Below are positions 1 to 2,925 of a DNA stretch of 20,676 nucleotides, one piece after another; within the stretch, counting starts at the first letter, position 1, and every line of letters begins with the position of its first letter. The notes beneath the pieces are model-generated. The model was not told where the DNA came from, searched no databases, and saw only the letters and a list, made by a program, of their open reading frames with translations. Origin of the DNA: a virus; the IMG/VR virus record IMGVR_UViG_3300037137_001960, positions 1 to 20,676 of that record. One strand, given 5' to 3'. A program made the translations under genes and the position numbers.

Positions 1-692
1 TCCCTCGGGGCAAGCCCGGGCCCAAGGGTCCTCGTGGGCCGGAGATTCGCATTCCGCAGCCGCAGTTCAAGGCGCGGGTGCAGCGCGAGGCCAACAGCGT
101 CGCGCGCACGACGCTCGGGATGTCGCTGGAAGAGGCGAAGGTGATCATCGAGGCGGCCAAGTCCGGCAAGAGCCCACAGGGGGACACGGCTTCGGCTCCG
201 CAGGTGAACGCGGCGCTCGTGAAGCTGGAGCAGGAGAACGCGAAGCTCCGGCAGAAGGCCGACGCCGAAGCGCGTCGTGCGACGGTCTGGGAGTCGAAGC
301 ACAAGAAGGACACGACCCGGCTGAAGGACCGGCAGGTCGAGATGGAACTGCGCGTGAAGGCGGCGCAGGCCGGCGTGCAGGACCCCGATTACGCGATCCA
401 CCTGTTCGCGAAGGCGGCATCGGCGGGGGCGACGACGGACCCTGACGCCTTCTTCGGGGGCCTCAAGGGGACACACGTCTACCTGTTCGCCGCTTCGCCG
501 GTCGCAGCGCCCCCGCGCGCGGTGGATGTTCCTGTGACCACCGCGCCTCCCGAGAGCCGTGCTCCCGGGGAGGAGACTCCCTCGCCAGCAGCGACGGGAG
601 CGGCGACGCCGAATGCGGACACGGACAAGATGAGTCCGCAGGATTTCGCGCGTCATGCGCGAACCACTTACGGCTTCGTGCCCGGGGCGTAA
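1..692 (+). CDS. Capsid scaffolding protein, 5'-truncated by window edge
   Basis: The reading frame is open from base 3 and ends at TAA 690-692, so the true start lies upstream. The GTG at base 78 is a weak alternative start, because coding-like sequence with a PGPKGPRGP stretch precedes it. The visible 229 residues have the make-up of a phage scaffold: a charged segment, a long helical Glu/Lys/Arg-rich stretch likely to form a coiled coil (nt 204-371), a Pro/Ala/Thr-rich flexible linker (about nt 500-627), and a short C-terminal helix beginning MSPQDFARHAR that would suit capsid binding. Its place 72 nt upstream of the major capsid gene supports the call. Scaffolds assist prohead assembly and are then lost. 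No protease motif is visible, so any maturation protease must be upstream. The call rests on architecture and position, not on a family signature. Confidence 0.75.
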   Translation, partial: PRGKPGPKGPRGPEIRIPQPQFKARVQREANSVARTTLGMSLEEAKVIIEAAKSGKSPQGDTASAPQVNAALVKLEQENAKLRQKADAEARRATVWESKHKKDTTRLKDRQVEMELRVKAAQAGVQDPDYAIHLFAKAASAGATTDPDAFFGGLKGTHVYLFAASPVAAPPRAVDVPVTTAPPESRAPGEETPSPAATGAATPNADTDKMSPQDFARHARTTYGFVPGA

Positions 693-763: not shown

Positions 764-2140
764 ATGGCGAATTTCCCAGACTCCTCACTTCCGGTGGCCT
801 TCAACGCGAGCGTCGTCGCGTCGATTCAGGACCGCACGCTTCAGCGTGTGTTCCGCGACGCGCTCTACCCGCGACTCCTCTACCGGATGGAGGCGCTCGC
901 GGAACTGTGGCCGGTCAACCTCGGCGCGAACCAGACGTTCACGCGCACCGGGCTGATCCGTCCGACCACCCGGCCGCTCGCGCCCGGCGTCGAGCCTCTC
1001 CCCAAGACGTTCGTCATCGAGCAGTGGGAAGCGACCGCGCAGCAGTGGGCCGACACCATCGACACCCACATGCCCACCAGCTACGTCACGCTGGCGTCGC
1101 AGTACCTCCGCAACATGCACCAGTTGGGGCTGCACTCCGGCCAGTCCCTCAACCGGGTCACCCGCGACAAGCTGTTCAACGCCTACGTCGCCGGCAACAC
1201 CGTCGTCAAGGCGGGCGGCGTCGGCGCAGGCGTCAGCGTCCCCGTCGTGAACCTGGACGGCTTCACCCGTCGTCTGTTCAACGGTCGTCCGACCCCGGTG
1301 TCGGTGGCGAACCCCATCCCGATCACCATCCCGGCCATCGGCTACGTCGGCGTGGTCACCGGCTTCGTCTCGGACTTCCCCGGTGACGAGATCCACGGCG
1401 GAACCCTGACCGTCGCTCCGGCCACGGCGGCTGTGCTCGCCGGTCGCGAGGCCGTGCTGGCCGACAACCGCACCCGTCTGATCTACTCGGGCGGCGGCAA
1501 CCGCGTCGACGACATCAGCGCGGTCGACCAGTTCCGGCTGGCCGACATCCGGGCGGCCCAAGCGCAGCTTCGTTTCGACAACGTCCCCCCGCACGAGGAC
1601 GGCAGCTATCACTGCCACCTCGACCCGATCTCCGAGTCGCAAATCTTCGGCGACAACGAGTTCCAGCGGCTCAACCAGTCGATCCCCGATTACATCCACT
1701 ACCGGCGGTTCGCCGCGGCGTTCCTGCTGAACACCACGTTCTACCGGAACACCGAGGCCCCGACCGTCGCGACCGTGGACGAGGATCCGGCCACCGGCTT
1801 CACCACCGGCTTCGAGATGACGAACCCGGCTGGCGTCGCCATCCACCGTCCGATCATCACCGGCCAGGGAGCCCAGGAGGAGAAGTACCTCGACGAGTCG
1901 CGGTACATCTCCGAGGCCGGCATCCAGGGCAAGATCGGGGAGTTCGCCGTCGTCAACGGCGGTGTCCAGGTGATGACCGAGCGCATCCGGCTCATCCTCC
2001 GCGCGCCGCTGGACCGCCTCCAGCAGCAGACCAGCGCCTCGTGGAGCTTCTCCGGTGACTGGACCGTCCCCTCGGACGCAACGGCGCTGTCGAGCCCCGC
2101 GACCTTCAAGCGCGCGGTCTGTATCATTCACGGAGAATAA
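764..2140 (+). CDS. Major capsid protein
   Basis: The 458-residue protein is the expected size for an HK97-fold major capsid protein and directly follows the scaffold gene. The N-terminal third contains a block, including QYLRNMHQLGLHSGQSLNRVT followed by KLFNAYVAGNT, of the kind seen in capsid proteins of several contractile-tailed phages and related metagenomic phages. The C-terminal part (GEFAVVNGGVQVMTERIRLILRAP) is beta-rich, as in the P-domain of this fold. The ATG is chosen because AGGAG lies at 751-755, eight nucleotides upstream, and a promoter-like element lies just before it. The product forms the icosahedral shell and should be among the most abundant phage proteins. Two hairpins follow the stop codon. 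The family call is from recognition of pattern and position. Confidence 0.87.
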   Translation: MANFPDSSLPVAFNASVVASIQDRTLQRVFRDALYPRLLYRMEALAELWPVNLGANQTFTRTGLIRPTTRPLAPGVEPLPKTFVIEQWEATAQQWADTIDTHMPTSYVTLASQYLRNMHQLGLHSGQSLNRVTRDKLFNAYVAGNTVVKAGGVGAGVSVPVVNLDGFTRRLFNGRPTPVSVANPIPITIPAIGYVGVVTGFVSDFPGDEIHGGTLTVAPATAAVLAGREAVLADNRTRLIYSGGGNRVDDISAVDQFRLADIRAAQAQLRFDNVPPHEDGSYHCHLDPISESQIFGDNEFQRLNQSIPDYIHYRRFAAAFLLNTTFYRNTEAPTVATVDEDPATGFTTGFEMTNPAGVAIHRPIITGQGAQEEKYLDESRYISEAGIQGKIGEFAVVNGGVQVMTERIRLILRAPLDRLQQQTSASWSFSGDWTVPSDATALSSPATFKRAVCIIHGE

Positions 2141-2367: not shown

Positions 2368-2643
2368 ATGGCGCGCGTCCGCAGCCTCCACAAGTTCCGA
2401 TCCCCTTCGGGGGTTTCGGGCTCCATCACTTATGGTGTTGGAGCGTTGAGTCGGTCTTGCACCGGCTCTGTTCCCCTTGAACAACGCAACGGTCTTCGGA
2501 CCTACCTGCTGCGTTCTATGGGGGTGGGGGGTTCGTGATGAGATCCCGCGTCCGCGCCGCGTAAAGCGCGTGGCTGTGACGGCTTCGGCCTGACCAGCAC
2601 TTCTCGCTCACTACTCCCCCCATTTTTTCGAGGGCACCACCGA
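2368..2643 (+). ncRNA. Candidate structured RNA island with three UUCG tetraloop hairpins
   Basis: No convincing gene lies here, but short inverted repeats nearly tile the + strand. Stem A pairs CCGA/TCGG (2397-2400, 2416-2419) and CCCC/GGGG around UUCG (2406-2409). Stem B is 10 bp with one U-U mismatch (2420-2429 with 2435-2444). Stem C is 8 bp with one G-U (2448-2455 with 2461-2468). A 4-bp stem spans 2470-2482. Stem D pairs AACGCA with TGCGTT (2483-2488, 2510-2515) and encloses GGTC-UUCG-GACC (2491-2502). A long-range stem ATGGGGG/CCCCCAT (2518-2524, 2617-2623) encloses CGCG/CGCG (2558-2570) and GCTG...GGC-UUCG-GCC...CAGC (2573-2598), and is followed by a U-run. The three UUCG loops start at 2406, 2495 and 2584, exactly 89 nt apart. 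It may be a leader, a terminator/antiterminator or a free RNA. I recognise no known family, and the function is unknown. Confidence 0.4.
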
Positions 2644-2925
2644 ATGAAGTCCCCCAGCATCATCCTCGGCACCATCGACGGCGGAAAGGCCATCCCGAAA
2701 GTTCGGGACGCGCAGCCTGCGTCTGTCGTCCGCGTCGAGCGATTCTATGCTGTCGAGCGGACTAGTCAGGTGCCCCGCGGAGCGTCGCACTACACGCTCC
2801 CGGCCGGGAAGGTCATCTCCTCCCGGGGCTACGACATCGAGGAGTTACTCCGGTTGGGCGTTCCGCTGAAGGAAACGTCCGTCGAGGTGACCCCGGTGCG
2901 CGCGCGGGTCAGTTCCGTCGCGTAG
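2644..2925 (+). CDS. Small hypothetical virion-region protein
   Basis: The 93-residue product begins at ATG 2644, nine nucleotides after GAGGG (2630-2634). I do not recognise a family. It has a beta-rich N-terminus (SIILGTIDGGKAIPKV) and a segment YTLPAGKVISSRGYDIEELLR near residues 57-75. That segment reads like a small structural domain with a short helix. It has no signal peptide, membrane segment or cysteine. It sits between the capsid gene and a connector-like gene, where head-completion or small head proteins are common, so a structural role is plausible but unproven. TAG at 2923-2925 is eight nucleotides before the next ATG. Confidence 0.7.
   Translation: MKSPSIILGTIDGGKAIPKVRDAQPASVVRVERFYAVERTSQVPRGASHYTLPAGKVISSRGYDIEELLRLGVPLKETSVEVTPVRARVSSVA

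Follow-up and report, generated by a model that had tools for sequence, protein, structure and literature searches.

Genomic context of the RNA island

The window, which is the whole 20.7-kb stretch of DNA analysed here (IMG/VR record IMGVR_UViG_3300037137_001960), carries a hairpin-rich island between the major capsid gene and the next small gene. The major capsid protein gene (764..2140, + strand), which matched phrog_1357 'major head protein' (E 4e-8), is the fixed upstream neighbour of the island, and a small head-operon gene (2644..2925, + strand), with relatives in the same slot, is the fixed downstream neighbour. The slot was shown to belong to the late head operon of tailed phages from an uncultured lineage that has a tail sheath. 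The product of the 2644..2925 gene matched neither a Pfam nor a PHROGs family, and a fold search was uninformative; its N-terminus is predicted to be disordered, and it has a confidently predicted beta-rich domain, in which the motif RGxxYTLxxGKxISSxGYDI occurs.

Directly 3' of the capsid stop codon there are two tandem hairpins (2145-2185; GCGCGCTTGAATTAAGCGCG and CCCCGAGCTACCTCTCGGGG) with no U-run on the + strand. They are followed at 2188-2367 by a 59-aa ORF with a GTG start, which matches endonuclease VII/HNH proteins at their zinc-finger N-terminus (phrog_1035, E 3e-7) and is probably the remnant of a homing endonuclease. Given that longer HNH ORFs occupy the equivalent position in three related loci (L008, L184, and L215), an insertion hot spot for HNH genes is suggested between the capsid gene and the island.

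The island itself, at 2389-2628 of the + strand, encodes a conserved structured RNA; besides hairpins it has a terminal domain and a long-range helix that holds a hairpin with an internal loop. Its start was placed near 2386-2389 because the element CACAAGTTCC is common to the window and the related locus L001, and its end at about 2623-2628, so that the RNA probably lies slightly inside the 2368-2643 region of the original prediction.

Structure of the window RNA

All structural parts are on the + strand. The 5' element CACAAGTTCC (2389..2398), the probable start of the RNA, is largely conserved in alignment A5, which covers the full RNA of six sequences (the window, L001, L005, L008, L009, and L033). 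Hairpin 1 (2396..2419) bears a UUCG loop at 2406-2409 and corresponds to A5 helix 1, with 92.6% of cells paired and double changes in three pairs. Hairpin 2 (2420..2444) is an inverted repeat of GCTCCATCAC and GTGTTGGAGC that corresponds to A5 helix 2, in which six pairs have double changes, yet just 75.9% of cells are paired. Hairpin 3 (2448..2468; GAGTCGGT/ACCGGCTC) appears in the minimum free energy fold and as A5 helix 3 (92.7% paired, four pairs with double changes). A long-range helix (2473..2523) follows, formed by CCCC 2473-2476 with GGGG 2520-2523 and by AACGC 2483-2487 with GCGTT 2511-2515; these are A5 helices 5 and 6, with double changes in 10 of 17 pairs, and the region is also covered by alignment A6, which adds L002 and L003. 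The long-range helix encloses a GGTC-UUCG-GACC hairpin (2491-2502) with the internal loop AAC/UACC.

The terminal domain (2518..2623) has a matching architecture in distant loci. Its closing helix pairs GGGGGG 2526-2531 with CCCCCC 2616-2621, with ATGGGGG 2518-2524/CCCCCAT 2617-2623 as an alternative register, and corresponds to A5 helix 7 (14 pairs, double changes in eight). Inside it, an inner helix with one internal irregularity (2535..2611) joins GTGATGAGA 2535-2543 to TCTCGCTCAC 2602-2611, and a corresponding helix was found in most parsed distant loci. An H-type pseudoknot (2547..2570) comprises the stems CGCG 2547-2550/CGCG 2558-2561 and CGCGC 2553-2557/GCGCG 2566-2570 and the loop UAAA 2562-2565; it was assessed by swap tests over 35 loci, described below. 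The domain also contains a GGC-UUCG-GCC hairpin (2581..2590), which forms the innermost pairs of A5 helix 9 and includes GC<->AU double changes. A T-run (2623..2628) lies 3' of the closing helix, and in 14 of the 32 loci parsed TTTT was found no more than 25 nt away from that helix.

Much of what had been read from the letters of the window was borne out. UUCG loops begin at 2406, 2495, and 2584, where they cap stems of 4, 4, and 3 bp, and they are three of the only four UUCG-capped stems of at least 3 bp on the whole + strand of the window. Consecutive hairpins tile 2396-2444, 2448-2468, and 2473-2523, and both the ATGGGGG/CCCCCAT stem and the T-run after it are present. The 89-nt spacing of the three loops is exact in the window but incidental, as the loop spacings of relatives differ, and the idea of repeated units had to be abandoned: the similar 16-mers around two of the loops are parts of two different conserved hairpins. 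Folding energy alone is merely moderately unusual and suggestive (z -2.3 for 2368-2643, with 1 of 200 shuffles equally good; z -4.75 for 2130-2650), and the decisive evidence is comparative.

Distribution and inheritance

Relatives were collected from IMG/VR in overlapping sets: 19 loci by means of the capsid protein (764-2140), 80 by alignment and a further 80 by means of the capsid proteins of loci with long RNAs. In many relatives the DNA 3' of the capsid stop codon is hairpin-rich and non-coding and is followed by the same two genes, while in others the genes almost adjoin. The RNA was called present in 65 of 124 distinct loci by a rule that misses some. It measures about 240 nt in the window and is longer in relatives. 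On a capsid tree of 121 rows, in which some 'absent' labels are probably misses, presence and absence need 14 changes as against 40.6 after shuffling (0/500). The RNA is old, vertically inherited with the capsid gene and repeatedly lost. It was not found in the cultured phages of this capsid type (Kromp, phiKX1, and phiKX2), and model R1, built on the AAACCC hairpin of the distant clade, had no match in two bacterial genomes that possess a capsid gene related to this one.

The distant-clade hairpin, flanked by CAAACCCU and AUGGAACCGC, was also searched as a DNA pattern across all 2.9 million IMG/VR contigs. Among the 51 stretches retrieved, the spacer can form a hairpin in 43, all from the capsid slot: 42 lie 176-854 nt 3' of the capsid gene, and the remaining one (L201) is on a contig that begins 65 nt before the motif and has the downstream head gene. 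The eight matches with no hairpin had no such capsid or head-gene neighbour. Some members of the distant clade (L205, L223, L192, and L208, among others) carry a short C-rich segment similar to CCGUCACCCUUUU in the interval from the closing helix to the ribosome site of the next gene, and L066, L069, and L071 have an extra hairpin within the terminal pseudoknot region, such as GGGGACGGTATCCCC in L069.

Covariation and strand of the RNA

In the clade of the window, RNAalifold predicted 82 pairs on A5, with at least one compensatory double change in 37 of them. Paired cells amounted to 88.8%, compared with 75.6 after shuffling, and covariation to 0.407, compared with 0.192 +- 0.019 (0/500) and with 0.06-0.15 when partners were slid. 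It must be noted that the structure was derived from the same alignment, which makes the slid controls favour it on paired cells; more weight is to be given to the excess of double changes. In A6, double changes were found in 25 of 38 pairs.

In the distant clade, alignment A3 comprised 33 loci and was nearly gap-free outside the apical loop of the AAACCC hairpin. RNAalifold returned the same 12 pairs that had been drawn by hand, with 95.5% of cells paired, 80 double-change cells versus 21.8 in shuffled alignments and a covariation of 0.553 versus 0.116 (0/500). The inner CC/GG pairs and the letters of the loop are dictated by the search pattern; the changes lie in the apical stem beyond its first pair and in most of the outer stem, which the pattern leaves unfixed.

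In both clades the 3' end of the RNA consists of a closing helix, an inner helix and an H-type pseudoknot, whose letters differ from locus to locus. A search for the best pseudoknot in each sequence did not discriminate from shuffles in such GC-rich DNA, and a swap test was therefore adopted. Over 35 loci, the second stem scored 182 within loci versus 143 +- 4.9 between loci and the first stem 105 versus 76.9 +- 2.7 (0/20000 for both), values that are optimistic and partly selected, since the pseudoknot cores were picked by eye. In the close relatives L218 and L181 the first stem is CCG/CGG and CGG/CCG, respectively. A MAFFT alignment of the cores (A4) misplaced the 3' strand and was excluded from the counts. 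With respect to the relationship between the clades, R1 had no match in the clade of the window, and the terminal-domain model R2, which recovers untrained distant loci at E 0.002-0.3, gave there a single match up to E 10, in the right place in L002 (E 1.8). The evidence that the RNAs of both clades form one family is suggestive: it comes from slot and architecture, with no significant model match.

Regarding the strand, the RNA-bearing gaps, 21.8 kb in all, contain 72 copies of CUUCGG and five of its reverse complement CCGAAG. This corresponds to 3.30 and 0.23 per kb inside the islands, versus 0.36 and 0.59 in the remainder of the same loci; gaps lacking the RNA had 9 and 11, respectively. 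Judged from these counts, the bias of CUUCGG marks an RNA of the + strand.

Possible function

The claim of a phage-encoded structured RNA thus finds support in compensatory changes in both clades, the kind of substitution that had been set beforehand as a test in homologues, and in the strand-specific UUCG loops. As to its role, the most likely reading, to which we give about even chances, is that of a cis-acting element in the late head-gene transcript. The RNA would be transcribed together with the head operon, its terminal pseudoknot domain would fold at the junction with the next gene and its invariant loops might be read by a protein or another factor. In this way it could tune the transcription, or the intact message, that reaches the genes 3' of the capsid gene, whose protein is made in abundance; the presumed means would be end protection, processing or attenuation/antitermination, and not hiding of the ribosome site. 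The 3' end of the RNA is close to the next start codon, some 20-35 nt upstream of it, at a median of 32 nt in 37 parsed loci (a value inflated where the inner helix was taken instead of the closing helix), with many at 17-30 nt, and at 20 nt from the end of the closing helix in the window. Its 5' side is variable and takes HNH insertions (the window remnant at 2188-2367, L008, L215, and L184). This asymmetry between the two sides and the fixed slot speak for an action in cis where the RNA meets the next gene.

The suggestion of a regulatory leader or terminator is compatible with these data in general terms, but simple sequestration of the ribosome site is unlikely, and a leader that buries the Shine-Dalgarno sequence does not agree with the data: in most of the loci parsed that site is found beyond the closing helix, on its 3' side, and it is mostly free. 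Nor does the island look like an intrinsic terminator, there being no + strand terminator-like site in the island and the loop of the closing helix being very large.

Several facts speak against a cis element: its size and elaborateness exceed those of most cis leaders, its loss in many relatives shows that these genes can be expressed without it, and the fixed position could also be the inertia of a trans-acting gene. A free, ornate RNA from the head operon, comparable to GOLLD or ROOL and acting in trans during infection or virion assembly, perhaps as a multimer or an RNA-protein particle, is the main competitor, although less probable. It would account for a fold as elaborate as this one, with several helices, a pseudoknot and invariant internal loops, and the terminal helix and U-run could define its 3' end. 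Promoter-like sites (TTGACn-16..18-TAnnnT) directly upstream in 3 of 51 loci (L003:6555-6585, L068, and L111), compared with 0.32 expected, and in L008 by eye, also fit a separate transcript, which they would allow in some lineages; they are missing from most loci. In L003 and L008 the promoter-like site is preceded by a terminator-like hairpin. Against such a free RNA, the pattern scan found the distant-clade hairpin nowhere outside the slot that separates the capsid gene from the next gene. GOLLD and ROOL, by contrast, are located near tRNA islands (PMC12286853), and the window has no tRNA genes. Somewhat more doubtful still is that we are dealing with a previously undescribed class of ornate phage RNAs, independent molecules in head formation or late-infection control, which would be located in the head operon because they act on the products made there.

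The remaining explanations have a lower probability. A bulky 3' end of the capsid message, by which an exonuclease block or termination would let the capsid mRNA outlast the downstream message, is rather improbable. The location after the capsid stop codon, the length of the closing helix, which reaches 10-16 bp in many loci, and the T-run in 14 of 32 parsed loci agree with it, but the invariant internal-loop nucleotides and the conserved pseudoknot exceed the needs of a blocking stem, the closing-helix loop of about 60-80 nt is unlike that of intrinsic terminators and HNH genes separate the capsid gene from the RNA in several loci. By a crude rule, terminators 3' of the capsid stop codon were present in 5 of 65 RNA-bearing loci versus 10 of 59 others. 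A part of the head machine analogous to the packaging RNA of phi29, an analogy mentioned in the original prediction, is very improbable: nothing other than the head-gene neighbourhood speaks for it, there is no Rfam match and many relatives with the same capsid type do not carry the RNA. We give hardly any credit to a coding stretch or a DNA-level element in place of an RNA. An open frame is present (2368-2538, 56 codons), but it has no family match and its 56-aa product has no tblastn match in 19 relatives, one of them with an 85% identical capsid protein, so that conservation as a protein was not found; moreover, the pair-preserving changes and the strand-specific UUCG argue against both.

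This is an RNA tied to one head-operon slot across widely diverged uncultured phages, and phage RNAs of comparable fold are few and their roles open. Its role is testable because it combines a fixed neighbourhood, a defined architecture of internal-loop hairpin and terminal pseudoknot, and natural presence and absence among close relatives.

Comparison with known RNAs

In agreement with the earlier statement that no matching RNA family was known, cmscan against Rfam 15 with permissive filters found nothing up to E 1 in the window island or in those of 13 relatives, the families of GOLLD, ROOL, pRNA, HEARO, introns and riboswitches included. No description was found in the literature searched, which left subscription journals largely outside, so that a description elsewhere is possible. 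This is a phage RNA family missing from Rfam, with strong covariation support. A group I or II intron was rejected, since the capsid gene and the next gene are both complete and there was no Rfam intron match.

The phi29 pRNA, which acts on the packaging motor, is also a phage RNA, and the window RNA has a head-related neighbourhood; the latter differs in anatomy, in having no Rfam match and in being missing from many relatives. EAR and HK022 put are processive antitermination RNAs, and the likeness to them would be that of a structured RNA inside a long operon with a presumed cis action; the window RNA is larger and has no Rfam match, and its mechanism is only inferred. HEARO and the omega RNA of IscB-IsrB come to mind because HNH genes adjoin the RNA in some loci. 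However, these genes are optional here, belong to the endonuclease VII/homing type and sit as insertions on the side facing the capsid gene, and there is no Rfam match to HEARO. The closest in spirit are GOLLD and ROOL, large and elaborate phage or prophage RNAs with pseudoknots and unclear function found near tRNA islands (PMC12286853). The window RNA is likewise an elaborate phage RNA with a pseudoknot, but it has another architecture and no Rfam match, adjoins the capsid gene, the slot to which the hairpin of the distant clade is also confined, and at about 240 nt is shorter than GOLLD, with members over 800 nt.
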